Under the pieces are notes generated by a model. It was not told where the DNA came from. It was given only the letters and a program-made list of their open reading frames with translations, and searched no databases. A stretch of 26,798 bases of DNA from a virus. The stretch is from the IMG/VR virus record IMGVR_UViG_3300027704_000132, positions 1-26,798 of that record; one strand, written 5' to 3'. Position numbers and translations under genes: made by a program. This document shows, one piece after another, positions 5,374 to 20,534 of this stretch. How positions within the stretch are numbered: the first letter of the stretch is position 1; each line of letters begins with the position of its first letter.

Positions 5374-5394
5374 AAAGGTATCCGAGATACCTTT
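5374..5394. repeat. Conserved dyad copy 1 (GTATC-CGA-GATAC), between two replication genes
   Basis: AAAGGTATC and GATACCTTT form perfect 9-bp arms around CGA. The 13-bp core at 5378-5390 is identical to five other copies in this window. It lies between the terminator behind the ssDNA-binding protein gene and the start of the primase-helicase gene. It could be an operator, or an RNA hairpin in the primase-helicase leader. Confidence 0.8.
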
Positions 5395-5396
5395 GT

Positions 5397-5416
5397 AAAA
5401 CCGGGGCGTACCCCGG
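5397..5416 (-). terminator. Rho-independent terminator after the ssDNA-binding protein gene
   Basis: Read on the - strand, CCGGGG-TACG-CCCCGG (5416-5401) forms a 6-bp all-GC stem followed directly by TTTTAC. It lies about 20 bases past the stop of the gene at 5436-6020. It probably gives strong expression of the upstream genes and partial read-through into the primase-helicase gene. Confidence 0.65.
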
Positions 5417-5435
5417 GTTAATACTATTTCAACTA

Positions 5436-6020
5436 CTAATCGTCGAAATCCAGGCTATCTAAGGCTTCGTCTACGTCGTCTGTCTCAGCTGCAACTTTAA
5501 CGTCTTTAATGGCAACTTTCTTTTGTTTCTTAAAATCAAAGCTAGGCTCGAAGTTATCCGCACCGGACGCTTCTTCACTGTACTCTACTAAGTCAACAAC
5601 TTGTACTGCTTGTAACTCCAGTGAAGTGTTTGTCTTACCATCACGAGTCCATGTGTGGGCAGAGCATTGAACATTACATACAGAGCCATTGCCAATGAGT
5701 TCTTTAAACGCATTGCCGTAGACATCTACAACTACTACTGGGCGTTTAACTTTACCGTTAACACCGAACGTAGTAGACTTCTTTAGCTTAACTTGTCTAA
5801 GACCTTCTTCCAATACTACATCGTGTTCTTGGTTACGCTTAAACTTAGGAAACAAACCTGTCTCTTTATACTTATCAGCTTGAGCATCATCTAATATAAC
5901 TTGGATAGTCCAGTTATGTGTGCCTTCACCTTGGTATGGTGCTTCGGGTTTATCTTCTTGTAACTTAGTCCACATGACTTTTACGTTGTCAAACGAGTAC
6001 TTAGCTATTTCAGTAGCCAT
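5436..6020 (-). CDS. ssDNA-binding protein, DUF2815-like, with acidic tail
   Basis: This 194-aa protein probably coats single-stranded DNA during replication. The body has the look of a DUF2815/gp2.5-type OB-fold protein: an early aromatic strand (KYSFDNVKVMWTKL), HNWTIQVILDD, a basic middle (KLKKSTTFGVNGKVKRPVVVVD) and FKELIGNGSVCNVQC. The C-terminus is acidic and ends DEALDSLDFDD, the layout of the SSB/gp2.5 tail that docks polymerase and helicase. The neighbouring upstream protein ends almost identically. The start at 6020 has a clear GAGGAG site. A terminator follows the gene, as expected for an abundant protein. Confidence 0.78.
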   Translation of the reverse strand: MATEIAKYSFDNVKVMWTKLQEDKPEAPYQGEGTHNWTIQVILDDAQADKYKETGLFPKFKRNQEHDVVLEEGLRQVKLKKSTTFGVNGKVKRPVVVVDVYGNAFKELIGNGSVCNVQCSAHTWTRDGKTNTSLELQAVQVVDLVEYSEEASGADNFEPSFDFKKQKKVAIKDVKVAAETDDVDEALDSLDFDD

Positions 6021-6039
6021 AATTATTCTCCTCTATGTT

Positions 6040-6903
6040 TTAATCGTCGAAATCTAAGTTTTCTAAAGCTTCGTCTATATCGTCAAAGTCTTCCACTTTA
6101 GTAGTCTTACCTTCCGGTTCTTTAGGCTTAGGTTCAGCCTTAACTTCCGGCTTAGGTTCAGCTTTCACTTCCATGGGAGTAATTGGAAATCCCCCTATGG
6201 TATCAATTGGAGAGTCAATAACACCTGTTATAGTATCGATAGTCTTGCTCTCCGCATTAATTACTTGGTCTACAACTTTCAGTTCGTCTTCTTCAATGAA
6301 GCGAACGGCTTTAAATGTTAACACCGGATATTCCATCTCGGGGTTAAAGCCTAGTTGAGTCACTATATATTTAGGGTCTACACCACGCTTAACTAACTGC
6401 GCACCGTACTGCCCAAGAGTTTTTAACGACGTCGCGGTTACCTTAAGTAACATTATGTCGTCGAGGTTAGTCGTTGGAGACACACAAATTCGCATCGAGT
6501 CAGAACATGCTTTCCCTTTACCACCGCGCTCTGTTATACGAGAACCCCATTGCCCATGAGGACAGATAGCACACTTCTTAGCTTGAGGTGCATCTGCGTT
6601 CTCGGAAGGCGTACTGCCATTGTTGGAATAACAGGTAGGCTTAACCAAACTACCATCTTCAACATCTTTATCATAGTACACTTTTGACTTGTGTGGGTTA
6701 GCTGACAGTATCACAACGTCAAAAGTTGTCTCAAATATTGAATACCTGTAGTCACCATGTTCTACGCTAAACACTCCACCCTTAGTAGTAAGTGTCTTAA
6801 GCCCTTCAGCTTTAGTAGCTGCTGCAAAAGAATTACTTCCACTAAAGGTTGCACCTTTAAGATGCTTAGGTAGGTCTGCTTTTAACGCAATCATGTCGTT
6901 CAT
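6040..6903 (-). CDS. Second ssDNA-binding-type protein with Cys cluster and acidic tail
   Basis: This 287-aa protein has three parts. Residues about 1-150 include a cysteine set (C91, C111, C114, C133, C140) in the context KKCAICPHGQWGS and GKGKACSDSMRICV, a probable zinc site. Residues about 150-215 look like a beta-rich core. Residues about 240-275 are a Pro/Lys/Glu linker with a repeated VKAEPKP unit, leading to an acidic end DEALENLDFDD. That end nearly matches the DEALDSLDFDD end of the next gene, the probable ssDNA-binding protein, so I infer a second DNA-binding replication factor using the same docking tail. The exact family is not certain. The ATG at 6903 follows the upstream gene's stop with no gap; translational coupling is likely, and the ATG four codons on is a possible alternative start. 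Confidence 0.65.
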   Translation of the reverse strand: MNDMIALKADLPKHLKGATFSGSNSFAAATKAEGLKTLTTKGGVFSVEHGDYRYSIFETTFDVVILSANPHKSKVYYDKDVEDGSLVKPTCYSNNGSTPSENADAPQAKKCAICPHGQWGSRITERGGKGKACSDSMRICVSPTTNLDDIMLLKVTATSLKTLGQYGAQLVKRGVDPKYIVTQLGFNPEMEYPVLTFKAVRFIEEDELKVVDQVINAESKTIDTITGVIDSPIDTIGGFPITPMEVKAEPKPEVKAEPKPKEPEGKTTKVEDFDDIDEALENLDFDD

Positions 6904-7305
6904 TTACTTACGCCTAAAGTTAATAACCTGCGTCTCGCCCCAGTCAATACCAGGAGGTAGGTCGTTGGTTTCTGCTTTGTACTGCTCAACTGCTACCTTA
7001 CTTACGCGACGCTCTAACATTTCCCAAGCGCCTTCTTCTTTTATAAAGTCTAGTAAAGTTTCCCAGTCAGCAACTTTTGCTGATGCTCTGATTGACCTGT
7101 AAGCAGTGCCAACACCTCTAGAAGATACGTTATCTATGCCCCGCTCATTAAAACGTTTTAAGAACTCAATTTCGATCTTCTCTTGCTTCTCTTTATCTTC
7201 TACGTCGTCTAGACTGAAGTCTGCCTTACGTCTTGCCCTGCGGTCACGCAGTCCAATAAATATCTTCAACAACGAATTGTCGTCCATTTCATTAACCTTT
7301 GCCAT
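6904..7305 (-). CDS. Conserved phage-type protein of unknown function, 133 aa
   Basis: The protein is helical and charged with no membrane segment. Visible parts: an N-terminal helix (NSLLKIFIGLRDRRARRKADF), an acidic/basic middle (EDKEKQEKIEIEFLKRF), and a C-terminal region with WETLLDFIKEEGAWEMLERRVSK and GIDWGETQVINFRRK. I do not recognise a family. Its place between an HTH protein and two ssDNA-binding-type proteins suggests a replication accessory role, by context only. The start at 7305 has a strong AAGGAGA site and lies inside the end of the upstream HTH gene (14-base overlap). Confidence 0.65.
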   Translation of the reverse strand: MAKVNEMDDNSLLKIFIGLRDRRARRKADFSLDDVEDKEKQEKIEIEFLKRFNERGIDNVSSRGVGTAYRSIRASAKVADWETLLDFIKEEGAWEMLERRVSKVAVEQYKAETNDLPPGIDWGETQVINFRRK

Positions 7306-7483
7306 CTATGCTCTCCTTTTTATTAGATAACCAATCATTGATGTCAGCTTCATCCCATCTCAAAACTTTTTGAGATACCCTAATAGGGTGTGGAAAGCTA
7401 ACTTCTCGCCTACGTAAAGCAGGCAAAGCCCCTTTACTAATCCCTAATTTTTCCGAAACTTCTTCCGGTCTAAGTAGTTTCAT
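7292..7483 (-). CDS. AlpA/excisionase-like HTH DNA-binding protein, 63 aa
   Basis: This small protein is a MerR-like winged helix-turn-helix of the AlpA/excisionase type: LLRPEEVSEKLGISKGALP is the first helix pair, HPIRVSQKVLRWDEADINDWL is the wing and closing helix, with the usual 'lrW...di..WL' ending. Such proteins regulate transcription or help recombination. No integrase is visible in the window, so a transcription role looks more likely than excision. It is the first gene after a probable sigma70 promoter (7521-7549). The ATG at 7483 has AAAGGA about 11 bases upstream. Confidence 0.75.
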   Translation of the reverse strand: MKLLRPEEVSEKLGISKGALPALRRREVSFPHPIRVSQKVLRWDEADINDWLSNKKESIDGKG

Positions 7484-7520
7484 ATGTGTACAAGTCCTTT
7501 CGTATGAGTTCAGATAGATA

Positions 7521-7549
7521 AGGTTACACTAAAGATTAATGCGTGTCAA
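7521..7549 (-). promoter_or_regulatory. Probable sigma70-type promoter for the HTH/ssDNA-binding/primase genes
   Basis: On the - strand a perfect -35 TTGACA (7549-7544) is followed after exactly 17 bases by TAACCT (7526-7521), a weak -10 (3 of 6). It lies in the gap between the SF2 helicase gene and the HTH gene and would start an internal transcript at the HTH gene. The -35 overlaps the helicase stop region. Confidence 0.45.
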
Positions 7550-9117
7550 GACATAACTTTGTGTCTATGCGCTTTTATTTCGTCAAGCAGTGCGCCCTGC
7601 ATTTTTTGCTTGTTCTTAAGCCTTGCGTAAATCCTTTTCTCGACTTTTGTACCCTCAAGCATGATGATGAAGTTGTTCATCTTTTGTCCCGGTCTGTTGA
7701 TTCTACCGTTGGCTTGCTCAAACGTTTCGTTAGAGGTAACACATGAATACCAAATGATAGTACTCGCTGCCGTTAACGTAAGACCATGTGACATCGCTGC
7801 TGGTTGCGCGACGATAACTTTTAAATCTTTACCTTTTTGAAATGCCCCAAAGATGCGGTCACGCTCTGATTTCTTTACACCGCCATGAATAATCTCAACG
7901 TTGAAGTCCTTACTCAGTTCTGCAGCTACCATCTTGACTGACGATACATAAGGTACAAACACAATAACTTTACCTTCAGCGGAAGCAACTATGTTTTTTG
8001 TCTCTTGAATCCTGGGGTTAGATGGAATAGTAAACTCAGAGCCGTCGTCGGCGTACACAACACCGCAGGCAATCTGTATTAACTTAGCCATCTTAACCGC
8101 TTCATTAACTGCCGTAATCGCACCACTATCTGCTTGTGTCTGTAACCTATTCATCATTTCTTTGTAAGCTTTGTCTTGTTCTTTGGTAAGAGCAACCATA
8201 CGAGTTTCGTACATGAGTGGCGGTAGGTCTACGCATTCGTCTCTAGTAAACCTTACTGCAGGTTGCATGATGTCTTTTACTACGTCAGTTGCGTCGGGCT
8301 TAGGAATCCAAGTGAACTGCGTCAACTGTCTCATCACTTGCATTTTAAACCTGTTGAAGTAAGGCGGTACTTTGTCGGGTACTAGTAACCTACATTGCGC
8401 CCACGCATCTGTTGGTGCATTAGGTGTAGGTGTTCCAGTCATACCCCAACAAGCACGCTTCTTCTTATGCTTGTTGACTATAGTGTTTATAACTTTCCAT
8501 CTATCTGTACTAGCGTTACGAGCGCACTGGGCTATCTCGTCTAGCATTACTATGTCTATGTCCTGTCTTGTTCTTAGAGCAGGTTCTATAATAGGTAAGC
8601 CGTCGTGGTTAATAATGTAAACGTCTACGTCTTGTTGTAATAGTTTTATTCGTTTGGCTCTAGTACCATGTAGTACTGCACAAGTTAGATGAGGGAAGTG
8701 ATTAAATATCTCATCAGCCCAAGTTCTTTCCAACGTAGACAACGGTGCAATGATTAAGGCTTTGTTAAACTTACCTTCTTTCTTTAAATAATCATATGCC
8801 CATAGAGATGCTAGTGACTTACCAGTTCCTAGTTCACTTAGGTTAAATGCTCGTCTGTGAGTCGTAAGAAACGCTGCTGCATCTTTTTGTGCTTGAAACG
8901 GCGCGAACCTACCCGGCCAATCGTAGTAGTACCTAATAGGTGACGGTGCGTCATGCCCTAGGTTACGCAGTACCCTTGTTTCATCTAGTCGATGTGGTAC
9001 GGCTACGTAGTCTACGCCTTGTATCTTTACTTGTTTAGCACTAGGTAAAACGCTTAAAACTCTTTCGGGTTCTTTAAGTTTTAGTAGTAGTGCTTTCTTT
9101 TTCTTCCATACTAACAT
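7546..9117 (-). CDS. Superfamily 2 (SNF2-like) DNA helicase/translocase
   Basis: A 523-aa ATP-driven DNA translocase of the SNF2/phage type. Motifs in order: Q/entry region FAPFQAQKDAAAFL (71-84); Walker A ELGTGKS (95-101); motif Ia LIIAPLSTLERTW (121-133); motif II MLDEIA (191-196); motif III WGMTGTP (224-230); then in the second domain KVIVFVPYVSSV, AAMSHGLTLTAA and QANGRINRPGQ (motifs V-VI with two arginine-finger candidates). Length suits compact phage helicases without extra domains. The role is likely fork remodelling or recombination, working with the nucleases encoded just upstream. The ATG at 9117 has no good ribosome site; a TTG-started mini-frame overlaps it and could couple translation. 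Confidence 0.85.
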   Translation of the reverse strand: MLVWKKKKALLLKLKEPERVLSVLPSAKQVKIQGVDYVAVPHRLDETRVLRNLGHDAPSPIRYYYDWPGRFAPFQAQKDAAAFLTTHRRAFNLSELGTGKSLASLWAYDYLKKEGKFNKALIIAPLSTLERTWADEIFNHFPHLTCAVLHGTRAKRIKLLQQDVDVYIINHDGLPIIEPALRTRQDIDIVMLDEIAQCARNASTDRWKVINTIVNKHKKKRACWGMTGTPTPNAPTDAWAQCRLLVPDKVPPYFNRFKMQVMRQLTQFTWIPKPDATDVVKDIMQPAVRFTRDECVDLPPLMYETRMVALTKEQDKAYKEMMNRLQTQADSGAITAVNEAVKMAKLIQIACGVVYADDGSEFTIPSNPRIQETKNIVASAEGKVIVFVPYVSSVKMVAAELSKDFNVEIIHGGVKKSERDRIFGAFQKGKDLKVIVAQPAAMSHGLTLTAASTIIWYSCVTSNETFEQANGRINRPGQKMNNFIIMLEGTKVEKRIYARLKNKQKMQGALLDEIKAHRHKVMS

Positions 9118-9170
9118 TGCAGTTCAGTGTGGTAACGCGTACCGTTGCACTGCCTATTGTTTGTTTCCAA
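9111..9170 (-). CDS. Possible 19-aa leader peptide overlapping the helicase start
   Basis: GAGGAG lies six bases before a TTG at 9170. The frame METNNRQCNGTRYHTELQC ends at TAG 9113-9111, inside the first codons of the helicase gene (ATGTTAG). The helicase ATG itself lacks a ribosome site, so translation of this mini-frame could deliver ribosomes to it. Too short to be sure; it may just be an offset ribosome site. Confidence 0.25.
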   Translation of the reverse strand: METNNRQCNGTRYHTELQC

Positions 9171-9183
9171 TTTGCTCTCCTCA

Positions 9184-9459
9184 TTAAGCCTTTGATAAGG
9201 TTCCGTATACCCCAGGGTTTTTCTTTCGCCACCCTCTGTTATTTTTTCTGTTAATTACTCGTGTGTTTGAGTCATCACCGCTACCACCTTTAGCTAACAT
9301 TACTTTGTGGTCTACGTCTTTGCCGTCTCCAACCTTAGCTCTACCTGCCTTAATCGCATGACGCCTTGCTTTGTTTTGAAGCACTCGTCGCGCTTGAACT
9401 TCTGGACGCTTGTTGTAAGCTGCCTTAGTTGCAAGCGATTTTTTAGATGTTATAGTCAT
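9184..9459 (-). CDS. Small HNH-type endonuclease
   Basis: This 91-aa basic protein carries an HNH-like nuclease pattern: DVDHKVMLAKGGSGDDSNTR (49-68) then VINRKNNRGWRKKNPG. The D-H pair, the GG loop and the downstream Asn residues are in the usual order; the final His of a classic HNH is not obvious, so it may be an HNN variant. The N-terminus is Lys/Arg rich and probably binds DNA. It may be a repair or recombination nuclease, or a free-standing homing-type endonuclease; lying within an overlapping gene string argues for the first. The start at 9459 uses GGGAGG inside the end of the upstream VRR-NUC gene (17-base overlap). Confidence 0.75.
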   Translation of the reverse strand: MTITSKKSLATKAAYNKRPEVQARRVLQNKARRHAIKAGRAKVGDGKDVDHKVMLAKGGSGDDSNTRVINRKNNRGWRKKNPGVYGTLSKA

Positions 9460-9739
9460 CTATTACCTCCCTAACTTGTTCAACGTCATCAACTACTATA
9501 GCAACACCTTTTGCATTATTAATACCTGCAATCTCTCTATCTTGGTTTGCCGTCGTGTTGCCTATCTTGCCCGGTGATTTAACTTCGAAGGCCAAAAAAT
9601 GACCTTTGTAACATACTAGTATATCCGGACACCCTACTCTACCCATACCGTTCGACACTGGCAGGTAGTACCATGCACCAGTTGTTACTAAGTACTCTTT
9701 AATTTTCTTCTTTACCTTACCTTCCGGTGTCATAGCCAT
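9443..9739 (-). CDS. VRR-NUC domain nuclease
   Basis: A 98-aa single-domain protein with the VRR-NUC fold of the PD-(D/E)XK group: N-terminal helix MTPEGKVKKKIKEYL, then GRVGCPDILVCYKGHFLAFEVKS (catalytic D in GCPDI and E-V-K in FEVKS), T..Q in TTANQDREI, and the closing strand GVAIVVDDVEQV. In phages such stand-alone domains act as structure-specific nucleases, possibly resolving branched DNA before packaging. The start at 9739 has GGAG at good spacing, three bases after the upstream Cas4/RecB-like gene. Confidence 0.85.
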   Translation of the reverse strand: MAMTPEGKVKKKIKEYLVTTGAWYYLPVSNGMGRVGCPDILVCYKGHFLAFEVKSPGKIGNTTANQDREIAGINNAKGVAIVVDDVEQVREVIDDYNI

Positions 9740-9742
9740 AGC

Positions 9743-10411
9743 TTATTCTCCACAGAAATCGCACAATTTTTTACCTACTGGACACCAGTTACGGCATAAA
9801 CCCGAGGGCTTTGCCTGCCACTTGTCCTCGTTGAATGCTATCTCTAACCGATCAACTCTTGGTAGAAACTCACTCCATATCTCTTGTATCTGCGCTCTCG
9901 TATATACTTCTTTATCAAATGATGAGTCTTTTAGCCAAATAAAACCGCACACTACTTTCTCTATCCATGGGTAGTAAGCAAAAGCTAACGCAGCGAACAA
10001 CATAAGTTGGTCTGAATTAGGCTTACGCTTGCCTGTTTTCCAATCTAGTAAGTAAGCTTTCTTAGAACCTACTACACCTATGTCTACGATACCTCTACAC
10101 CATACATTCTTAGCCATCCATTTGGTAGGCTTAAAATTGTTGTCTATAGCCATACGTTCTTCTACTAAACGTTTACCCTCGTATGTAAAAATTTTATCTA
10201 CGTACTTAGCGTATTTCTGTAAGTCTTTAGGCAGTTGATTTTTACCGTTAGCATAGTCCTCTAAATGTTTATGGACTTTGTTACCCCATATAGATGCTTC
10301 ATGTTGCTTTTCATGTGACTCTTTGGTTACTCGTGTAAGTTGATACCTACGAGGGCAAGTTTCAAACGCCGTTAACGCCGAGTAACTCCAAGGTCTAGTC
10401 GGTTTTACCAT
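9743..10411 (-). CDS. Cas4/RecB-like PD-(D/E)XK exonuclease with Fe-S type cysteines
   Basis: A 222-aa nuclease. It starts with WSYSALTAFETCPRRYQL (8-25), the classic RecB/Cas4 entry with Cys19; GIVDI gives Asp110; LLDWKTGK gives the D123-W-K125 pair; Q135 follows. Four more cysteines at the C-terminus (C206, C210, C217, C220), together with C19, fit a 4Fe-4S cluster as in Cas4/AddB-type nucleases. Expected activity is trimming of DNA ends for recombination. No CRISPR array or Cas1 is visible, so this is a phage replication/recombination nuclease. It overlaps the upstream small gene by 17 bases; AGGA lies before its ATG. Confidence 0.85.
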   Translation of the reverse strand: MVKPTRPWSYSALTAFETCPRRYQLTRVTKESHEKQHEASIWGNKVHKHLEDYANGKNQLPKDLQKYAKYVDKIFTYEGKRLVEERMAIDNNFKPTKWMAKNVWCRGIVDIGVVGSKKAYLLDWKTGKRKPNSDQLMLFAALAFAYYPWIEKVVCGFIWLKDSSFDKEVYTRAQIQEIWSEFLPRVDRLEIAFNEDKWQAKPSGLCRNWCPVGKKLCDFCGE

Positions 10412-10571
10412 CTGCTATTTCCTGTTTACGAAACTTATCTAAGTACTTATCCATGTAATGGTCGTAAGCTTCGTCGTAACTTACAGGACTGCCACTTGAC
10501 GCTACTTTATCAGCGTACTTGTTAGCCTCGTCCTCGCACTTGTCTTTATACGTCTTTTTTCCAGTCTGCAT
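10395..10571 (-). CDS. Small charged protein of unknown function, 58 aa
   Basis: I place the start at the ATG at 10571, which has AGGA upstream, giving a 58-aa protein (MQTGKKTYKDKCED to the end ADGKTD). A start 12 codons earlier (10607) is possible but lies deep in the upstream gene. It is hydrophilic, rich in Lys, Asp and Tyr, with YDEAYDHYMDKYLDKF. No family recognised. It overlaps both neighbours, which supports it being a real gene. Confidence 0.55.
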   Translation of the reverse strand: MQTGKKTYKDKCEDEANKYADKVASSGSPVSYDEAYDHYMDKYLDKFRKQEIADGKTD

Positions 10572-11109
10572 TAGTTTTCCTATGCCCACGCCACGCAACA
10601 AATCCACCGATGCGGAGTGCGTAGTAAGCTAAATAATTTAGTACGAAGAAACCGTTCACACATATATTTATGTCGCGAAACGTTTCGTCCATCCATTTTT
10701 GGTCAACAGTACCATGTGCAGTCTCTTTGTTTGAGTGCAGTAAAGTTTGGTACTTATACCCATAGTCATGGACTAGTCCACCCATGAGCAATACACCCAT
10801 TGGCGACAACCATGACCTTAAGAACTTAGGCACAGATGCCCCATCAAACTTAAAACCTTTTGGTACAACAAAAACAGCACCATCTATACTGTATGTCCAG
10901 TCGTCTACTATTTCCCATTTGCGTGAGGCGGTGAGCCACATTTTTATACCTTTCCAAAAACCAACACCGCTTGTACCCATAGGTAATGGTTTCATGTGTG
11001 GCATTTCTTCTGACACGAAAGTTATTTTTGGGTCTCTCTTGTCAAGTTTGTTAAAAAGCCATCCAATTAGTATCGCGGATACTACTACACCATAAATTAT
11101 GTACATCAT
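10546..11109 (-). CDS. DUF1353-like membrane-anchored protein
   Basis: A 187-aa protein with an N-terminal membrane anchor (MMYIIYGVVVSAILIGWLF) followed by a DUF1353-like domain: FVVPKGFKFDGASVPKFLRS, then GGLVHDYGYKY and DQKWMDETFRDI, and a second hydrophobic region NGFFVLNYLAYYALRIGGFV. The 'P.GF.fDgaSVP' and 'HD' motifs are the hallmarks of DUF1353, a phage family without a firmly known activity. The Asp/His pattern could hold a metal, but this is inference. The membrane anchor and place in the replication unit suggest an inner-membrane role. The start at 11109 has GGAG; ATG at 11106 is an alternative. Confidence 0.75.
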   Translation of the reverse strand: MMYIIYGVVVSAILIGWLFNKLDKRDPKITFVSEEMPHMKPLPMGTSGVGFWKGIKMWLTASRKWEIVDDWTYSIDGAVFVVPKGFKFDGASVPKFLRSWLSPMGVLLMGGLVHDYGYKYQTLLHSNKETAHGTVDQKWMDETFRDINICVNGFFVLNYLAYYALRIGGFVAWRGHRKTNADWKKDV

Positions 11110-11153: not shown

Positions 11154-13067
11154 TTATTTAGCGTCGCCGTACGTATCTGCAATGTCGCCTTCGCTCCAAG
11201 TTAAGAGTTCTGGCCACCATGTAGGAGGTGTTCGCATTATCTTTTGTACCATGTCGAGCGTCGTTTGAGCTGCACCCGTAGGAACGACATAGACGAGTTC
11301 GTCGTGAACCATCAATGCAGGTATAAGCTTCGACACTCGTTGTATCTCTAAGGCGTTGTCTGCTATCACACACCTAGCCAAATGCTGAACAATGTTCTCG
11401 TCTATTTTCCCTGCATATATCCTTGCCTTGTTACGACCTTCGCCGTATACAAATTCACTTCTGCCTGTTTCTTCATTAGCTTCTGTGCGTAAGTTAGGGT
11501 ATCTGATTACCCCTTTAGGTGTTTGTAACCCTTCGGGAATAGGGTAAACCATACCCCATGGGTCTACTGCTCCACCACTAGCACCACGCAATATTGTGCC
11601 TAAAGCTTTGTGACAAGTTCGCCACCCTCTAGTTATCTCGGGGTAAGCCATTCGCCAAGTGTCGACGATGTCTTTAGATTCTTCCAGGTTGAGTTCGACG
11701 CCACCCATAAGTTTTGCTACTTTTTGGAATGTCGGCGCACCTGCACCAAAGCCTAATCCTAAGTGTGCAACCTTACCAACTTGGCGTTGGACTTTAGTTA
11801 CGGCGGTGTCTTCCACTTCATATAAAGTACTAGCGAAGTCTTTATATAAGTCAGCGTTCTCTGTATCTTTCTTAAACAACTCCATGCTTGAGGGAACTTT
11901 CCATAAGAAGTGGTTAACTCTTAACTCAATACCCGATAGGTCAGCCACTACGACCTTATATCCCTTGGGTGCAATGAGAGACTTACGCAATGCGTCTGAT
12001 GGTTTAGGGGAATATGGATTTATCCTCGGTAAATTTTGAGGGTTATATGCCCACCCCGACCAACGACCAGTAGTGTCGGCTCCATAGTACTTGAGGGGGA
12101 TAGGAACTTTTCGTTGTGGGTGTGCTTCAGTTGCAGCGAGGAACGACGCAATGCGAGTTTGTAGTATAGTACTCTTGGCATCTAACCGAGCATTTGAAGC
12201 CATTGCTACTAATGGGTTGTCATGTTCCTGTAAAGCAATGAAGGCTTCATCAGTCTTTGCTAGGGCAGGTATATCTTTACCTGTAGTGGGCGACACTTTA
12301 GTAGGAACTTCGACACCAACGCTACCTAGAAAATCCGCAAATTTTTTCGATGATGATAATAAAGTTAGTACCTCGGATACTCTTTCATCGTCGTCTGTCC
12401 CAGTAATAGACATCCTATCTGCTGCAACCTTAAGAACTTCACGCTTTCGTATGCCTTCTTCTACTAAGGTGTTGTTCAGTAAATCTGTATCACACTCAAA
12501 CTGTGGCTCTATCAATGAGCGAATTGTCATATCTATTAGTTTTACTTCGTCTTTTTTTGTCTGTGGCATGAGTCGTTTTAGCAAACCGTAACATTGGTCG
12601 ACATCAGCTTTGTTGTAAACACGCATGTCTGCAATCTCTTGTTCTGTGAAATCGCATAAGTGTCTACCTTTGGTTTGGAGCAAGGCAAAGTTATCTTTCT
12701 TACCAAGTCCATAATGAGTTACTAGCTTAGCTAGTGATAGCCCAACATCTTTAGCATGGATAGGGCGTGCCATTGCGAGGGTACAACCCCACAGCATGGG
12801 TTTGATGTTGAGTCTCCATGACAGAATCATAGAGTCAAATCCCGACAGGTTGTGTCCTACAACCCAGTACTGCGACCAGTCAATAGCGTCGCAGTATGCT
12901 TTTACTTTATCTTCACCAAATATTACTTCGGTGTCGGTGTTGCCAAACTTAAATGCACAACTGATTATCTCTGTGTCGGGGTGCATGCAGTAAGCAATAG
13001 GGGACATCTTAGTCAACGAATGACCGACATCCCAAAAAGTTTCTAAGTCAACAGTACATATTTTCAT
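11154..13067 (-). CDS. Family A DNA polymerase with 3'-5' exonuclease
   Basis: The replicative polymerase, 637 aa. Proofreading domain: Exo I VDLETF (Asp7, Glu9), Exo II GHNLSGFDS (Asp78), Exo III YNKAD (Tyr151, Asp155). Polymerase domain: TTGRWSG (332-338), motif A VVADLSGIELR (Asp376), motif B RQVGKVAHLGLGFG (Arg428, Lys432), motif C VHDE (Asp589). No 5'-3' exonuclease domain, as usual for phage Pol A. In motif B the position equal to E. coli Phe762 is Leu436 and that equal to Tyr766 is Phe440. Leu762-type enzymes are common in marine viral sequence sets. The start at 13067 overlaps the upstream stop as ATGA, so translation is probably coupled. Confidence 0.95.
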   Translation of the reverse strand: MKICTVDLETFWDVGHSLTKMSPIAYCMHPDTEIISCAFKFGNTDTEVIFGEDKVKAYCDAIDWSQYWVVGHNLSGFDSMILSWRLNIKPMLWGCTLAMARPIHAKDVGLSLAKLVTHYGLGKKDNFALLQTKGRHLCDFTEQEIADMRVYNKADVDQCYGLLKRLMPQTKKDEVKLIDMTIRSLIEPQFECDTDLLNNTLVEEGIRKREVLKVAADRMSITGTDDDERVSEVLTLLSSSKKFADFLGSVGVEVPTKVSPTTGKDIPALAKTDEAFIALQEHDNPLVAMASNARLDAKSTILQTRIASFLAATEAHPQRKVPIPLKYYGADTTGRWSGWAYNPQNLPRINPYSPKPSDALRKSLIAPKGYKVVVADLSGIELRVNHFLWKVPSSMELFKKDTENADLYKDFASTLYEVEDTAVTKVQRQVGKVAHLGLGFGAGAPTFQKVAKLMGGVELNLEESKDIVDTWRMAYPEITRGWRTCHKALGTILRGASGGAVDPWGMVYPIPEGLQTPKGVIRYPNLRTEANEETGRSEFVYGEGRNKARIYAGKIDENIVQHLARCVIADNALEIQRVSKLIPALMVHDELVYVVPTGAAQTTLDMVQKIMRTPPTWWPELLTWSEGDIADTYGDAK

Positions 13068-14638: not shown

Positions 14639-14648
14639 TTTGCTCTCC

Positions 14649-15248
14649 TTATTTAATTATATACGAAATAGATAACAATGAACCACTTCTTATCTTATTT
14701 ATTAAATCAGCACGAGTAACCGCTTGTTGCTCGTCTATTGGTTTCAAGTAATCGTTAAGAAACTTTTCCTTGTCCTTGGTGTCAAAGTTACGAGGTATAG
14801 GTACATCAGCAACACCCTCTGTCGACCAAAGACTTTGTTTCCTAATTTCTTCATGTGATAACTTACTTATGCCTTTAGCACTTAACTTTTCTAACCAGTA
14901 GTCAGTACTCCTATACCCATAGTTATCTTCGGGTGTCATTCTCGCTATAGCAGCGATATAAGCAACTGCCTCCTCTATCTTGTCGGGCTTTATCATCTCT
15001 AAAGGTATATCTCTGTTCCAATGACCTCCATGATTTAAAGTGTCTAAGCCATGATGCTTGAGGAAATGCTCAATCCACCATGCGGTTTCCCAACCACAGT
15101 TGGCTACTCCTGTATCTATTGCTTTACACACGATGTTCTTCATTCTGCCCGACCATCTACTGGTGTCAAAATCCATCTCAACGCGTGCTTCCTTAGTGGC
15201 GTAGTTCTTAGCCATACCACATACTTCTCCAAAGTTATCTTGGTGCAT
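14649..15248 (-). CDS. Unknown protein, 199 aa, in the MoxR/VWA gene string
   Basis: A soluble protein with many Trp, His and Cys residues in its first half (GWETAWWIEHFLKHHGLDTL, then HGGHWNRDI). The His/Asp-rich stretch could bind a metal, but no catalytic family is recognised. The second half is helical and charged (EEIRKQSLWSTEG, KDKEKFLNDYLKPI). The ATG at 15248 overlaps the stop of the upstream gene as TAATG, with GGAG in that gene's last codons, so translation is coupled. A later ATG (residue 12) is possible. Confidence 0.6.
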   Translation of the reverse strand: MHQDNFGEVCGMAKNYATKEARVEMDFDTSRWSGRMKNIVCKAIDTGVANCGWETAWWIEHFLKHHGLDTLNHGGHWNRDIPLEMIKPDKIEEAVAYIAAIARMTPEDNYGYRSTDYWLEKLSAKGISKLSHEEIRKQSLWSTEGVADVPIPRNFDTKDKEKFLNDYLKPIDEQQAVTRADLINKIRSGSLLSISYIIK

Positions 15249-15961
15249 TATCTTTCTCCTTTAGTGTATAAATAATCTACTTTCGTAGTAGTCCGAGGGT
15301 ACTCAAACCCATTCCATACTATCTGTTGCAAGTCGCTACGCAACTGCCAATCACTAGCAGTACATATGTCAGCTACTATTTCCTGTGATGATGAGTCGAG
15401 CCATGTTTCTTTAGCTATGTACTTACCTGTCGCTTGGTATGTTTGTTTCTTCTGTTGCATTTTGTAGATAGCGACTATTGCAGGTATTACTTCGTTAATG
15501 AGTATCGGGGATACTATTTTCTTGTACTCTGGGTTGGGTGTCTGAACTTTTATCATACCCATTGGTACAGGTAAACGCTCTGCACCTGCCCAGTAAGCCA
15601 AGGCATGATGCACATGCTTGCCTAAGTACATAGGCTTAGTTAGGTGTTGCCTACCCTTTAGCACAACGGCAACATTCTGCTCATGGTCAATAGCTAACTC
15701 CTGCATACCATGATGGGTTATCCATGCCTTCTTGACTGGCTCGGTACACTCTTTGTCGAGGTACAACTGTGGACACTCTTTGTCTGTCGTCGCTACTAAC
15801 TGTATGCCGTAGTCGTCGTACATACGCCTGTCATACTGTTGTATATAACTCTTTACCATAACCTCACCAGTATCAAACTCTACCATGCCACCATTGGTAG
15901 CGTGAAACGCTTGGAATCTATCCCAAGATTTACTTTGGTGGTCAAATTTAAACTTCTTCAT
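15248..15961 (-). CDS. Unknown protein, 237 aa, in the MoxR/VWA gene string
   Basis: A soluble protein with strand-rich first half (GGMVEFDTGEVMVKSYIQQ, KAWITHHGMQELAID, NVAVVLKGRQHL) and a helical second half (ILINEVIPAIVAIYKMQQKK). A variant of the conserved dyad (GTATC-GGG-GATAC) lies inside the gene at 15502-15514. No family recognised. The start at 15961 overlaps the stop of the 79-aa gene as ATGA with GAGGAGG upstream. Confidence 0.6.
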   Translation of the reverse strand: MKKFKFDHQSKSWDRFQAFHATNGGMVEFDTGEVMVKSYIQQYDRRMYDDYGIQLVATTDKECPQLYLDKECTEPVKKAWITHHGMQELAIDHEQNVAVVLKGRQHLTKPMYLGKHVHHALAYWAGAERLPVPMGMIKVQTPNPEYKKIVSPILINEVIPAIVAIYKMQQKKQTYQATGKYIAKETWLDSSSQEIVADICTASDWQLRSDLQQIVWNGFEYPRTTTKVDYLYTKGER

Positions 15962-16197
15962 TTGTATTCCTCCTCATCTGCCCAATGGTAAAAACCTTTA
16001 GGCGTTTCATCATCATCATTCATACCACACTCACAACTTACACCATCTTTTAGTTGTCCATCTGGCCAAGCACAATCGTCACAAGTGAACTCTTGCTCGT
16101 ACTCGGGTTCGGGTTCGGGTGGTATTATCCGTTCAGCAGTTAAGTTTGCAATGACTTGCTCTAACTCTGCAATTTTTTTATCTTTACTTGTACTCAT
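15958..16197 (-). CDS. Small acidic protein with CxxC/CxC zinc-ribbon-like site, 79 aa
   Basis: An N-terminal coiled-coil-like helix (KDKKIAELEQVIANLTAE), an acidic Pro/Glu linker, then C39-x2-C42 and C55-x-C57, which could hold one zinc. The C-terminus is acidic and aromatic (GFYHWADEEEYK). A small zinc-binding adaptor is likely; partner unknown. It starts inside the end of the VWA gene (ATGA overlap, GGAG), so it is probably made together with it. Confidence 0.6.
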   Translation of the reverse strand: MSTSKDKKIAELEQVIANLTAERIIPPEPEPEYEQEFTCDDCAWPDGQLKDGVSCECGMNDDDETPKGFYHWADEEEYK

Positions 16198-17360
16198 AAT
16201 TGCTCCATATTAAATGTAATTACCTCACCGAATGGAAAGGTATCCTTATCAGTCGTTACCCACACAGTATCTATTGCAGGTTCGTCTAAGTCGTTTTGGT
16301 CGCCCCACCCATCTGTGAAGTAAACTAGACACTCTACCTCGCCTGCATATGAGTCGAGCCAGTCGAACACAGGCTTGAACGAAGTACCACCGCCACCTAC
16401 AGGCTCGAGAGTTATCGGTAACTCGTCGGGTGTGTACTCTCGTATGCCACCAATCTCATAGTCGCAGTAGATAACAGTAACTTTCTCGGGTAAGCAAGTT
16501 TCCATTATGCGATTGATGTGTGCGTTGAAGTGGGATAAGTCTTTATTGTTTAGACTGCCCGAGGTGTCTACCGCTACTACTACCTCGCCCATGCGTGGTA
16601 TGTAGTCGTAGCCTGGGAGATACATACCCTGACCGACGAAACGACGATTAGGTCTGTTCCATGAGTAACCATCTCTAACCTTGGCATGCATGTATCTCTC
16701 TAACTTCTCGTGCCAAGGAGTTACTACATTAATCATATCGTCTACTAATCGCTTGATAGACTCGGGTAACTTACCCGAAGATTGGGCAGCTTTTGCCGAC
16801 TGAATGGTATCAATCTTAGCTTGAGCCTCGAGGGCGTGTATCTGTGAGTCGTCTAGTGCTTGACCATCGTCGTCAGTAGCATCACCTACATCTTGACCTA
16901 TACCGCCTTGGCCTAAGTCATTGTCGTCCTCGTCGTATAATTCCTCGGACGCATAACTTCTACCATTGTCGAGAGTGATACCGCCATCAATGAAGTCACC
17001 TACTTTGGCATCTATGAGTGTGTCGTTGATGACTTTGTCACATGCTACATTCCATGCCATGTGGTCTCGATGTTTGCGTCGTAGTGCATGAGATAACATG
17101 TAGTGCAAAGCCTCGTGAGCCATAAGAAACATAATGTTCTTGACTGTCAAAGGCTCTACCCATGCAGGATTGAGTATCATCTGACCTGTCGCTGACATAC
17201 CCGCTGTGGGTACTTCGTCTCCATATTTGATAGGTCGCCTAGATACGGCAGTACCAAAGAATGGGTGGTCGAGTATCAACAAAGCTTTCGCCTTGCCGAC
17301 CTTACGCTCGACCTCTGCTTGGTTAACAGTATCCGAGATACTAATTGTATTAGCAGTCAT
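16194..17360 (-). CDS. VWA-domain protein with metallopeptidase-like N-terminus (DUF2201/CobT-like)
   Basis: A 388-aa protein. The N-terminal half has a zinc-peptidase signature HEALH (His82, Glu83, His86) in a helix, LMAHEALHYMLSH, as in the DUF2201 N-terminal domain. A long acidic linker follows (about 140-175). Residues about 255-385 are a von Willebrand A domain: MIDAS motif DTSGS (265-269), Thr326 in GGGGTSF and Asp350 in YFTDGWG, so metal-dependent partner binding is intact. Such proteins work with MoxR-type AAA ATPases, as in CobS/CobT chelatase and RavA/ViaA; the ATPase lies two genes upstream. The first codons contain an exact copy of the conserved dyad (17329-17341). Whether the HExxH site cuts protein is unknown. 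Confidence 0.82.
   Translation of the reverse strand: MTANTISISDTVNQAEVERKVGKAKALLILDHPFFGTAVSRRPIKYGDEVPTAGMSATGQMILNPAWVEPLTVKNIMFLMAHEALHYMLSHALRRKHRDHMAWNVACDKVINDTLIDAKVGDFIDGGITLDNGRSYASEELYDEDDNDLGQGGIGQDVGDATDDDGQALDDSQIHALEAQAKIDTIQSAKAAQSSGKLPESIKRLVDDMINVVTPWHEKLERYMHAKVRDGYSWNRPNRRFVGQGMYLPGYDYIPRMGEVVVAVDTSGSLNNKDLSHFNAHINRIMETCLPEKVTVIYCDYEIGGIREYTPDELPITLEPVGGGGTSFKPVFDWLDSYAGEVECLVYFTDGWGDQNDLDEPAIDTVWVTTDKDTFPFGEVITFNMEQL
17329..17341. repeat. Conserved dyad copy in the VWA gene start
   Basis: GTATCCGAGATAC lies over codons 7-11 of the VWA gene. The flanks AACA and AATT also match the copy at 18321-18333 when that is read on the other strand, so these two share about 20 bases with one or two differences. 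Confidence 0.75.
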
Positions 17361-17361
17361 G

Positions 17362-18384
17362 CTACACCAACCCTGTCATGTTGCGAACTAGTTCATCTAT
17401 CTTGGTAACCGCTTGCTCACGAGATGATTTATGGGTGCGAAGTAACTCTTTACCCATCTCACTAGAGTACGAACTAACTAAATCTCTAAGGTCGTCTATC
17501 TGACCTTGCATCATAGCGTCGTCGCTGATGTTGATTTTGTTCATACGCTCCGACACTTCTACTAAGTTGTCGACTAAGGTATCTCTGAACACAGAGCCGT
17601 CAGTACCTATCGGTACGGATAGCTTGGCGATTGCTCGTTGCATTGGCTCTATCATTGACTGAAGCACATGCTGATTAGCATTTACCTCGGCGTCATGTAG
17701 TTGTTGTTGCAATGAGTCTTTATCCTCGTCGGATATGCCTACTCTGAAATCACCAGTAGTTGGTACTGGCATGTAGCGTATGTTGATACCGAATTTTGAT
17801 CGAAGTTCGTCGACCTCGGGATAGTCACTAGCGTTGGCTAAGTTTGGTTTGCCTTTGGCTATTGATATCTGTGTCAAGCGGTCAAGGTCTGCCTTGACTT
17901 CCTCGTCCCAAAACAAGCACAGAGTGTCGACTGCTTTATATGCTGAGTCAACACGCTGACGAAGTCCACTAGTAAATTCCATGTAGTGGTCTATGTTGAG
18001 CATGTCTACACCAGTAGTCCATGGCACAGTATTGTCTTTGACATATGTATAGACATCTGTAAATCTGCTGATGGTAGCTTTGACTCTGTTATCTCTACCC
18101 TCGAACAAATGCTTGTTGACATTACCCGCACCATACTTCTTGCTTTCTTCTTGGTCTAGCTTGTATGGTGAATACATATTACGCTTGACACTTATCAGTA
18201 CTGCTTTCTCGTCAAGACCTTTGATGTTGACTGCCAGTTTATTAACTAGCACACCCTTAGTCGTCGGTGTTACAGGCGATGAGTCGAGCGGTACTGCTTG
18301 TCCAGTCGGTGGCGTAATTGGTATCTCGGATACTGTTTCCGTGGCAACTGCGTTGCTGATTGCATTTGATAGTATGTTATTCAT
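17362..18384 (-). CDS. Middle protein of the MoxR/VWA trio, 340 aa, unknown
   Basis: The first 45 residues are polar, low-complexity and probably disordered. The rest is helical, with DMLNIDHYMEFTSGLRQRVD, LCLFWDEEVKADLDRL and a long helical C-terminus. No catalytic motif seen. Comparable three-gene sets (AAA ATPase, helical middle protein, VWA/peptidase) occur in phages and bacteria, where the middle protein may be the adaptor or the substrate binder; here that is context only. Its start overlaps the ATPase stop as TAATG with GGGAGGA, and its own end is one base from the VWA gene, so the three are translated together. An exact dyad copy lies in codons 17-21 (18321-18333). Confidence 0.7.
   Translation of the reverse strand: MNNILSNAISNAVATETVSEIPITPPTGQAVPLDSSPVTPTTKGVLVNKLAVNIKGLDEKAVLISVKRNMYSPYKLDQEESKKYGAGNVNKHLFEGRDNRVKATISRFTDVYTYVKDNTVPWTTGVDMLNIDHYMEFTSGLRQRVDSAYKAVDTLCLFWDEEVKADLDRLTQISIAKGKPNLANASDYPEVDELRSKFGINIRYMPVPTTGDFRVGISDEDKDSLQQQLHDAEVNANQHVLQSMIEPMQRAIAKLSVPIGTDGSVFRDTLVDNLVEVSERMNKINISDDAMMQGQIDDLRDLVSSYSSEMGKELLRTHKSSREQAVTKIDELVRNMTGLV
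18321..18333. repeat. Conserved dyad copy in the 340-aa gene start
   Basis: GTATCTCGGATAC on the + strand, that is GTATCCGAGATAC on the - strand. It lies over codons 17-21 of the middle gene of the trio, in the polar, probably disordered start of the protein, where the protein sequence is free to vary. Confidence 0.75.
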
Positions 18385-19397
18385 TAGTTTCCTCCCATGA
18401 ATATGTCTTTGTTAGCAACTGCCCAGTCAATGAATTGCTTAGTCTGTTGCAGTTTAGGGTGTAGGCGTAACGCATCTGTTACATACACCATCTGAAATTC
18501 CTTCGGCATACGCGACATGAATATCATATCTCGCTCGAACGCCTCGGGTTCTGTGGTCATAGACAACGCCGTTGATACTGCATACTTTACGGCAGGCTCG
18601 TCGGGTATCTCTATCTTGTCGGGTGATAACCTAATTGCGTCAATGCTCGGCATCTTGCCCATCAAGTCTCTCGCTGCAACCCACTCGGCTGCTGCTCCCT
18701 CACCTACTTTGCCCTCACATGCCATCATGTATAGGTCTGTCGGTAAGTCGTTGGGTACTTCGGTGAACAGTTGCGACCATGCTCGTTGTGTCGGATTGAC
18801 TGAGCGACTGGCGTCGAAGTCATTGAGCAGTTGTGGTCGCATACGCAAGAACGCAATACCGAGTGGCTCGATATCATTCTCCATTGCCCAACCGCACCAG
18901 TCGTCCAGAGATGTTTCCATCTCGAACTCGTACATTCTATTGGATAAGTGGGTAAGCAGTTGTTTCGCACCTGCTCTATCTTCCACACGATTACCAGTAA
19001 CAAGAAAACGAATGTCTTTGTCTAGCTTGAAAGTTGGTGTGGTACGCTCGAGCAGAAAGCCCGCCGCCCATGTTTGGTGATGAGTCGACGATTGCGGTAA
19101 CTCCTCTAACACTATCAGTCCTGCACCTGTGCCTTCGCGGAACTTGTAAAACATCTCGGTAGGGTTGAAGCGTGTCTGTCCGTCAACTACTGATGGTACA
19201 CCTGTAAAGTCTACTACATCATGGTTGTTGACATGCACTATCAGTATCCTATCTTCTGCTATGCCTAAGTTACGCCCGACCTGTAAACATGCGTCGGACT
19301 TACCCATTCCTGGCTTACCTTTAAAGAACGGTACGGCAGTCGGTGATTTGCGTAATATTTGAGTAGCTACGCTTACTACTTGATTGATTGATGGCAT
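18384..19397 (-). CDS. MoxR/CobS-type AAA ATPase
   Basis: A 337-aa AAA ATPase. Walker A is GKPGMGKS (27-34). The Walker B strand reads LIVLEEL (94-100), with Glu where Asp is usual. A sensor-1 strand follows (FLVTGNR) and an arginine-finger region (LLTHLSNRMYEFEM). The NNHDVVDFTGVP insert and the overall length match MoxR/CobS ATPases, which remodel protein complexes through a VWA partner. It is the first large gene of the trio and has the best ribosome site of the group (AAGGAGGG before ATG 19397). Confidence 0.85.
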   Translation of the reverse strand: MPSINQVVSVATQILRKSPTAVPFFKGKPGMGKSDACLQVGRNLGIAEDRILIVHVNNHDVVDFTGVPSVVDGQTRFNPTEMFYKFREGTGAGLIVLEELPQSSTHHQTWAAGFLLERTTPTFKLDKDIRFLVTGNRVEDRAGAKQLLTHLSNRMYEFEMETSLDDWCGWAMENDIEPLGIAFLRMRPQLLNDFDASRSVNPTQRAWSQLFTEVPNDLPTDLYMMACEGKVGEGAAAEWVAARDLMGKMPSIDAIRLSPDKIEIPDEPAVKYAVSTALSMTTEPEAFERDMIFMSRMPKEFQMVYVTDALRLHPKLQQTKQFIDWAVANKDIFMGGN

Positions 19398-19418
19398 TAT
19401 GCCCTCCTTGGTTTAAAG

Positions 19419-19574
19419 TTAAAGTAATCTACTTGCAATAGCATGAAGCACCATTGCTGAATACAGACAACTGACTGTAATCGTAGCTAACATTATGTAC
19501 TTGATGTATTTGGCAAGTACTCTCTTGGTTGTAAGTTGAACTTGTACTACTTGTATATTTCGCATTTGTTTCAT
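19419..19574 (-). CDS. Small single-span membrane protein, 51 aa
   Basis: ATG at 19574 has AAAGGAG at ideal distance. The product starts with a basic, polar segment (MKQMRNIQVVQVQLTTKRVL) and has one hydrophobic helix (YIMLATITVSCLYSAMVL) near the C-terminus; stop TAA at 19421-19419. It is the first gene of the long - strand unit, directly downstream of a copy of the duplicated 16-base element. A small inner-membrane early protein; function unknown. Confidence 0.65.
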   Translation of the reverse strand: MKQMRNIQVVQVQLTTKRVLAKYIKYIMLATITVSCLYSAMVLHAIASRLL

Positions 19575-19594
19575 GTGTTTCTCCTTTGGCATTG

Positions 19595-19610
19595 ATATAC
19601 CTATGAGTCG
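19595..19610 (-). promoter_or_regulatory. Duplicated 16-base element, copy A
   Basis: ATATACCTATGAGTCG is identical to 19916-19931. Read on the - strand it is CGACTCATAGGTATAT, and copy A ends 20 bases before the ATG of the first - strand gene. TATATC or TATATG at its end may serve as a -10 box; no good -35 is seen. Confidence 0.4.
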
Positions 19611-19632
19611 AGCGGTTGTAATAAGTCGCTTG

Positions 19633-19903
19633 AATAAGACAATTTGATAATGACTTAATCAATAAAGAACAACGACTTACTTTGGAATAAGACAATAAGA
19701 CAGTTTGAAACAGAGAGAGTATCCGAGATACTAAATCGTCTGCATTTTGAGGATATTTGTAAGAGTTCATAATCATTTCTATATATATTATTTATTAATG
19801 TCTTATTGTCTTATTGTCTTAATAGGCACTTGCAACCCTAACTGTATAAGCGTTCTTGTATTAAGACAAAGTTCTATATATTGTCTCAATGCGTGTCTTA
19901 TTG
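19633..19903. other. AT-rich repeat region, candidate replication origin or control region
   Basis: The 450 bases between 19575 and 20025 hold no convincing gene. AATAAGACA occurs at 19633, 19686 and 19694; its complement TGTCTTATT at 19799 and 19894; TTGTCTTA is repeated three times with an 8-base period from 19799 to 19822; TTAAGACAA is at 19861. Between the two opposed groups is a very AT-rich stretch (19776-19798, TATATATATTATTTATTAA). Opposed iteron-like repeats around an AT-rich core are typical of origins or of multi-site operators. One conserved dyad (19719-19731) lies inside. Confidence 0.45.
19719..19731. repeat. Conserved dyad copy in the repeat region
   Basis: GTATCCGAGATAC with arms extended by A/T (AGTATC...GATACT). 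Placed between the first group of AATAAGACA repeats and the AT-rich core. Confidence 0.8.
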
Positions 19904-19915
19904 CAGTCGGCGTGC

Positions 19916-19931
19916 ATATACCTATGAGTCG
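19916..19931 (-). promoter_or_regulatory. Duplicated 16-base element, copy B
   Basis: Identical to 19595-19610 over 16 bases. It lies 12 bases from the dyad at 19944-19956, as if the two belong to one control unit. Confidence 0.4.
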
Positions 19932-19943
19932 TGCCTCAATTAA

Positions 19944-19956
19944 GTATCCGAGATAC
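19944..19956. repeat. Conserved dyad copy beside duplicated element B
   Basis: GTATCCGAGATAC. Read on the - strand the longer context GCAATGAGTATC-N3-GATACTTAATTG matches the copy at 20508-20534 in both flanks, with the spacer inverted (TCG in place of CGA). Confidence 0.8.
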
Positions 19957-19988
19957 TCATTGCTGACAGAATTTACGACCAGACGCAC

Positions 19989-20012
19989 GAAAACCCCGAC
20001 CGAAGTCGGGGT
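19989..20012 (-). terminator. Rho-independent terminator of the 154-aa gene
   Basis: Read on the - strand, CCCCGAC-TTCG-GTCGGGG is a 7-bp GC-rich stem (8 with the closing A-T) with the very stable C(UUCG)G loop, followed by TTTTCG. It begins about 14 bases after the stop at 20026. Strong and textbook in form. Confidence 0.88.
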
Positions 20013-20025
20013 AGTCATTTTGATA

Positions 20026-20490
20026 TTAGTAGTCAAGAACATTAACCACTTTAGTCATTTGAGCCTTAGTCAGTCCAAACTCTTTTACAACTTTTTGAGC
20101 CTGTTCCTTTGCAGTTCTCTCGCTGACTGTAACCTTAGTAGTAATAAACTTGTAAGGCTTTGGATTTCTAGCAAGTTCGGACTCGGTGAAGTGTCCAGCT
20201 TTGGTTAGTGGCTTACTAGCTTTCATTAACGAAGTGCGTTCAGTCAATGACTCTTTAGCGGTTAGACCGAACACAAGCCTTTGAGTTGCTGACTTATTGA
20301 TACGGTTTTGAATACGCTTGATTGATTGAGCGTTGCCGTCAATGTGTGCGTACTCGGTTACCCATGCGAGGTAGCTTGGGTTGTCAGTCTTAGAACGAAT
20401 GACCGAGCTGATTATTTTATTAAGCTCAACACCTAACTTAGAGGCGTTGTCGCTATCCATGTGTAACTTTTGAAAGTCTTTTGTTTCCAT
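20026..20490 (-). CDS. Stand-alone early gene, 154 aa, unknown (candidate regulator)
   Basis: The start is taken as ATG 20490 because AGGAG lies five bases before it; a TTG at 20511 is in frame but has no site. The protein is basic and helical: SSVIRSKTDNPSYLAWVTEY, NAQSIKRIQNRINKSATQRL, and a C-terminal EQAQKVVKEFGLTKAQMTKV that could be a helix-turn-helix. I recognise no family. It has its own leader carrying the conserved dyad and its own strong terminator, so it is a separate transcript at the head of the - strand. That layout fits an early regulator or host-takeover protein. Confidence 0.7.
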   Translation of the reverse strand: METKDFQKLHMDSDNASKLGVELNKIISSVIRSKTDNPSYLAWVTEYAHIDGNAQSIKRIQNRINKSATQRLVFGLTAKESLTERTSLMKASKPLTKAGHFTESELARNPKPYKFITTKVTVSERTAKEQAQKVVKEFGLTKAQMTKVVNVLDY

Positions 20491-20507
20491 TGTATCTCCT
20501 AGTGTGT

Positions 20508-20534
20508 GCAATGAGTATCCGAGATACTAATTGC
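20508..20534. repeat. Conserved dyad, longest copy, in the leader of the 154-aa gene
   Basis: GCAATgAGTATC-CGA-GATACTaATTGC is a 27-base dyad with only one unpaired position in each arm (core 20515-20527). It lies 18 bases before the ATG at 20490. A TATAAG box (- strand, 20540-20535) directly upstream would put the transcription start within or beside the dyad, the usual place for a repressor site. Confidence 0.8.

Follow-up and report, generated by a model that had tools for sequence, protein, structure and literature searches.

The 26,798-nucleotide stretch of viral DNA analysed here (IMG/VR record IMGVR_UViG_3300027704_000132; hereafter, the window) is a 26.8-kb fragment of the genome, of about 60 kb, of an uncultured marine phage, and it carries a short palindrome, GTATC-N3-GATAC, repeated through its early region. 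These dyads are probably bound by a single protein, a homodimer that recognises DNA by its sequence and is most likely encoded by g161, the first early gene. It would act on them by autoregulation and as a roadblock, and related phages appear to have replaced g161 and the site set in step. The sequence comparisons directly show the sites, how these are replaced class by class at homologous places, and how they co-vary with g161; the binding of g161 to the dyads, as a dimer and via its helix 54-64, would follow from them, and such binding would repress, with a pay-off that may be either immunity or the shut-off of early genes. The first-pass annotation of this DNA, whose interpretation of the motif stands in part, had proposed the operator of a phage regulator, which the comparative evidence supports, and had named three candidate regulators, of which that evidence singles out the 154-amino-acid protein (i.e., g161).

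Eight perfect GTATC-N3-GATAC dyads are present in the window against 0.04 expected, a number that none of 100 dinucleotide shuffles reaches, and a ninth site, at 12368, is a near copy with one arm mismatch. Six of the eight are exact GTATCCGAGATAC-type sites, one of them reversed (Table 1), and the other two keep the arms around another spacer, GGG at 15502 and GCG at 11070-11082. The earlier list of six exact and two variant copies proved correct in all its coordinates, but it missed the perfect-arm copy at 11070-11082 and was therefore an undercount; its estimate of less than one copy by chance holds, as does the confinement of the sites to the early/replication half, since the convincing copies all lie between 5.3 and 20.5 kb and none falls in the terminase or portal genes. 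Over the arm lengths and spacings tested, GTATC was the sole over-represented dyad arm, with no other arm exceeding two copies, shifted frames of the GTATC motif excepted. The 13 bp are only the core of the site, because the dyad symmetry runs outward to AGTATC..GATACT and often further, at best to CAATTA..TAATTG. Two weak matches at 2586 and 23160, each with one arm mismatch, were set aside, as they lack these outward features and fit chance. The suggestion that the CGA spacer is itself recognised finds little support: in transcript sense, two window copies carry CCC or CGC instead, and the centres in relatives vary within a genome and occur in both orientations.

The palindrome of the window is not that of its relatives. 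The 13 primase-based relatives, of which the most similar is 84% identical, all lack GTATC-N3-GATAC, and among DNA-polymerase-based relatives it occurs only as single chance copies. Absence from close relatives at matching places had been named beforehand as grounds for rejecting the motif, and literally the motif is absent there; yet a different palindrome stands in those places, and the conclusion drawn here is the opposite one. De novo counting showed relatives with 80-90% identical core proteins to repeat palindromes of their own that share this geometry (e.g., AATATCGCCGATATT, ATTCTCGCCGAGAAT, AGTCCACNGTGGACT, AGTACAGNCTGTACT and TTTACAGNCTGTAAA), and gene maps place these palindromes in the same early region, several of them at homologous positions: before the first early gene, toward the 5' end of g340, and at matching codons, in the same frame, of the DNA polymerase gene and g237. 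Thus, at the DNA polymerase site, four phages hold three palindromes at one alignment position and in one reading frame (AGA GTA TCC GAG GTA CTA in the window, AGA ATA TCG GCG ATA TTA in G005, and AAA GTA CAG TCT GTA CTT/A in L038 and G014). In phages without g161, the codons at this site and at that in g237 are non-palindromic.

Each phage has one class of palindrome, as judged from the first early gene and its leader in 22 distinct phages: AGTATC-N3-GATACT in the window, L124 and L121; AATATC in G005 and L133; ATTATC in L158; ATTCTC in L122; AGTCCA in L126/G020, L130/G019 and L112; an AGTACA type in L117, L164 and the L038 group; AGTTCA-N4-TGTACT in the L037 group; TTTACA in L181, common to L052; and AGTAGC in L162. 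A class-specific palindrome occupies the place of site O1, in the g161 leader, in nearly all g161-type phages, and when ten arm patterns are tabulated against 30 contigs, the table is near-diagonal. Allowing no more than one arm change gives 89 sites in 24 contigs, again with a single class in each. The window has nine sites, G005 ten and other contigs several. De novo counts that allowed two mismatches gave many false leads in other relatives (GTTTACNNGTAAAC, GCTAACNNGTTAGC and ACGTCGN); these were rejected for being composition-biased, not exactly repeated and untied to a leader site, and the four Rollin dyads of L036, a single terminal cluster with another spacing, were also set aside.

The gene that changes together with the sites is g161. 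Among the contigs examined, at least three exact copies of a 6+6 palindrome are found in 10 of 22 g161-positive and in none of 54 g161-negative ones (Fisher, 7e-7), and wherever a repeat-bearing contig covers the locus, g161 is found. Between the window and the other classes, g161 is only 18-49% identical, against 72-100% for TerS, TerL and AAA. In 14 non-redundant phages, the operator distance follows the g161 distance (rho 0.42, p 0.001) and not that of TerL (0.15, not significant) or AAA (0.09, not significant). In terS/terL/portal (from 20875 on), the DNA of phage L158 agrees with that of the window at 96.5% identity, and after g161 at 82%. Between these conserved stretches, replacement is confined to g161 (18% identical) and its leader, and both operators read TTATC..GATAA; read in this way, L158 is a natural exchange of g161 plus operators. 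In one phage, TerS and TerL are 100% identical and both g161 and the operators are replaced. The g161-negative relatives (G001, G003, G009, L096 and others) have at the same locus another family, of roughly 160-330 amino acids and present in about 40 phages, for which profile comparison gave no relation to g161 and in whose phages no repeated palindrome was found.

The co-variation may reach down to a single residue. A confident AlphaFold2 model of g161 (predicted local distance difference test score 90.5; 20 sequences) is mainly helical with two beta strands, and the helix 54-64, with R59, is its predicted recognition helix. Residue 59 is R or K in all phages with ..TC half-sites and L, A or N in all those with ..CA half-sites, whereas L162, whose half-site is ..GC, has D; no other aligned g161 column separates the ..TC and ..CA types perfectly (family-wise permutation p 0.036). 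The half-site type switches at least four times on the g161 tree, and L117 (A59, CA) is nested within a 99/96-supported group together with the window (R59) and L124 (K59).

How could such a protein act? A g161 dimer would bind the palindrome in its own leader and exert negative autoregulation on the early promoter, O1 lying between the -10-like box and the g161 start codon, a position suited to blocking initiation. It would also bind the eight further sites in the leaders and coding sequences of the leftward early/replication operon, where, in a "stoperator-like" manner, it would mainly be a roadblock or terminator of elongation, an activity that is suggested because sites sit inside genes. 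Binding may in this way limit early transcription during infection and shut down an incoming phage of the same specificity, and related phages would have swapped g161 and, in step, the whole site sequence, resulting in heteroimmune-like classes on a common backbone. The comparisons suggest a phage repressor not described before, the recognition code of which would be exchanged from one phage to another in the manner of immunity types. In its boldest form, the proposal would be that g161 founds a new family of phage repressors with no known fold relative and that these marine phages carry about ten exchangeable immunity-type specificities, the whole operator set, fixed-codon sites included, being rewritten at each exchange, and residue 59 being the first letter of the recognition code; our opinion on this is evenly divided.

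Several observations weigh against the proposed role of g161. The whole case is a comparative sequence analysis of metagenomic phage contigs, most of them fragments. By sequence, g161 gave no match to a DNA-binding domain or helix-turn-helix (HTH) family (Pfam, PHROG), and by structure no usable match in the PDB or BFVD, nor did its 33-122 core in the PDB; a missing fold match is no demonstration of a new fold. The operator distance also correlates weakly with that of TerS (0.25, p 0.045). One g161-positive contig, L113, has no clear site set, the DNA polymerase site of the window carries an arm mismatch, and several phages of the GTCCA class lack this site. The pattern at residue 59 had been spotted by eye ahead of its test, and on well supported branches it offers just two independent contrasts. 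Finally, the g161-type contigs, themselves fragments, yielded neither a tyrosine nor a serine recombinase (PF00589, PF00239), and an HTH_3 repressor (PF01381) was found in none of 12 records, mostly fragments, with all 14 controls matched.

Could the regulator instead be the product of another early gene, or of a gene outside the window, with g161 being only a fast-evolving target? That g161 has no recognisable DNA-binding domain, and that the window covers 26.8 kb of a genome of about 60 kb, speak in favour of it. Nonetheless, among the contigs that cover the locus repeated exact palindromes are confined to the g161-positive ones, g161 is the sole gene exchanged together with the operators in the available stretch of L158, its distance (and not that of TerL or AAA) follows the operator distance, and its residue 59 co-varies with the half-site. 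The other candidates fail tests of presence or conservation: the MarR-like protein named as an option by the first-pass annotation is absent from the operator-bearing L052, whose contig spans the place of the gene; the AlpA-like one, which operator-free phages have as well, is 77-89% identical across phages with differing operators; and an HTH-TM protein is absent from G005. A regulator other than g161 is therefore considered unlikely.

Antitermination of the N/nut type, in which g161 would be an antiterminator that binds the palindromes as RNA hairpins of the early transcript, appears improbable. The layout of leader hairpin, first gene and terminator does resemble lambda nutL-N-tL1, with a terminator right behind g161 and with sites that follow one transcribed strand throughout the early operon, and lambdoid phages also have class-specific N/boxB pairs. 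In lambda, each operon has a single boxB element, an RNA hairpin that is strand-specific and has a defined loop. The window-type sites share with lambda N/nut the first early gene, the leader element, the terminator behind the gene and the class-specific protein-site pairs, but they behave like DNA palindromes of no fixed orientation, with as many as ten in an operon. Mispairs in transcript sense show no wobble bias (G-U 5, A-C 6, A-A/T-T 14, over the 89 sites that have no more than one arm change) and asymmetric centres are found both ways (CAG 5/CTG 7, CGA 7/TCG 4, GCCC 2/GGGC 2), which argues for a double-stranded DNA palindrome and not for the RNA hairpin considered initially. Furthermore, the G014 class holds AGTTCAGCCCTGTACT plus its reverse complement, and within a genome the arm sequence is kept rather than the pairing; many stems are short and AT-rich.

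Replication initiation or partition sites, iteron- or parS-like and bound by a phage protein, are a very remote option. The AT-rich, origin-like region with TGTCTTATT repeats does have O2 and O3 in it or close by, and initiators and iterons co-evolve too. Yet the sites are single ones dispersed over 15 kb, in 5' leaders and coding sequences, one of them before the first gene and only two near the putative origin, and they change with one early gene, which also disfavours the replication or primase signal proposed at first. As for chance or codon-level repeats without function, several copies do lie within coding sequence, but the excess over expectation (8 versus 0.04), the differing reading frames, the leader and noncoding copies and the class-specific replacement at the same places refute them to near certainty.

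If g161 is the operator-binding repressor, the stoperator system of cluster A mycobacteriophages (L5, Bxb1) is its closest analogue, and the window network would work alike without being a member of it. In those phages, 20-30 asymmetric repressor sites are aligned with transcription and the class motifs correlate with repressor distance (PMC6550527), and the repressor is a monomer with two DNA-binding domains (PMC9283540). Both systems have many copies of a roughly 13-bp site, across the genome in cluster A, some in the early promoter and most elsewhere, and in both there is one consensus per relative, with correlated repressor and site distances (here, the rho of 0.42 for the putative repressor g161) and heteroimmune, or here heteroimmune-like, classes on a common backbone. 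The window-type sites differ in that they are palindromic, with centres in both orientations, and number about 3-10 copies, in the early region only, several of them at conserved codons of replication genes. The cluster A repressor, which blocks both the start and the elongation of transcription and confers superinfection immunity, has an N-terminal HTH plus a Stoperator domain; g161 gave neither an HTH family hit nor a structural match that would speak for or against such a build. Cluster A phages are temperate, with an integrase or parABS; no integrase was seen in the g161-type contigs, which are fragments. The Streptomyces phage phiC31 has conserved inverted repeats (CIRs) and a repressor. 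These CIRs are also palindromic repressor sites scattered over the early region, in other phages and hosts and with another repressor family, and no account was found of relatives among them having exchanged the complete set of sites at the level of codons. The C1 repressor of P1, a known lysogeny repressor with dispersed operators, also serves many single operators genome-wide, although these are asymmetric.

For the g161-type phages, immunity in the lysogenic sense would be no more than a possibility, since their contigs yielded neither an integrase or resolvase nor an HTH_3 repressor. Tyrosine-integrase domains are found in some g161-negative relatives (G003:21765-22217, G009:42316-42714, G029:60430-60849), a bacterial-genome scan with TerL matched only contigs without g161, and the phage group may mix temperate and lytic members. 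If these phages were obligately lytic, it would be a puzzle why immunity-like specificities diversify. Dispersed, class-specific repressor sites are best documented in actinobacterial phages, and the network of the window would add an uncultured phage group from many marine metagenome contigs, with palindromic sites and a regulator of unknown family. Its about ten natural protein-operator pairs on a near-identical backbone make the recognition code and the multi-site rewriting directly testable.

Table 1. Sites O1-O9, g161 and neighbouring elements in the window, with their counterparts in related phages
Feature	Position	Strand	Context	Sequence form or counterpart
g161	20026..20490	-	first early gene; proposed dimeric operator-binding repressor	154 amino acids from ATG 20490 (open reading frame list: TTG at 20511)
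O1	20515..20527		leader of first early gene, between TATAAG -10-like box (20534-20539, - strand) and Shine-Dalgarno/ATG of g161	exact; extended dyad CAATTAGTATCTCGGATACTCATTG
O2	19944..19956		directly past g161 terminator	exact; L158 syntenic site TTATCGCGGATAA in 82% identical stretch
O3	19719..19731		AT-rich region with TGTCTTATT repeats, between g161 and AAA gene	exact
O4	18321..18333		5' coding part of g340	exact, reversed; class-specific operators at same place in G005, L038, G019, G020, L124
O5	17329..17341		codons 7-11 of VWA/DUF2201 gene	exact; G005: own operator about 20 bp upstream of same start codon
O6	15502..15514		inside g237	spacer GGG; same codons: L038 GTACAGTCCGTAC, G014 GTTCAGCCTGTAC
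O7	12368..12380		inside DNA polymerase gene	one arm change; same codons: G005 ATATCGGCGATAT, L038 and G014 GTACAGTCTGTAC
O8	11070..11082		codons 10-13 of DUF1353 gene	spacer GCG
O9	5378..5390		about 30 bp upstream of primase/helicase-like gene, after CCGGGG..CCCCGG-TTTT hairpin	exact; G019: AGTCCGCTATGGACT at same place
Second leader palindrome	20545..20566		upstream of g161 -10-like box	GTTAAGTCAATAATGACTTAGT; similar in several phages of differing operator class
Terminator-like hairpin	19990..20012	-	after g161; intrinsic type	CCCCGACTTCGGTCGGGGTTTT; similar hairpins in relatives

The early genes run leftward, from 20.5 to 2.4 kb, and the late genes rightward from 20.9 kb; the early set comprises primase/helicase-like, SNF2-type helicase, VRR-like and PD-(D/E)XK nuclease, DNA polymerase, VWA/DUF2201 and AAA genes, named from domain searches and our reading of the translations. 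The g161 protein is basic, with an isoelectric point of 9.7 (mostly about 9.5 across g161 proteins). The second leader palindrome, GTTAAGTCAATAATGACTTAGT, probably binds another factor, of the host or of the phage, because it is similar across several operator classes. Hairpins resembling intrinsic terminators stand directly upstream, in transcript sense, of O2 and O9 (19990-20012 and about 5395-5420), and in L124 and L117 the terminator behind g161 is flanked by two operators. Around O3, at 19600-19830, the TGTCTTATT repeats occur in both orientations beside an AT-rich stretch, resembling a replication origin, and the open reading frames of 79 and 115 amino acids listed there are probably no genes.

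A further signal of the early region is the 8-mer CGACTCAT, found on the - strand of the window at 3263, 11133, 12568, 15391, 16349, 18279, 19080, 19603 and 19924, that is, nine times on the early-region sense strand against 0.55 expected in the window, and never on the other strand. Over six phages it is found 43 times against 0.9 expected, in all reading frames and in noncoding sequence, and it is also present in G001, which has no g161 (CGACTCA 15 forward, 0 reverse). It can be likened to the T7 promoter core ACGACTCA, the remainder of which is missing in most copies, and is possibly a signal of the early transcript, acting at the level of the RNA or of elongation.

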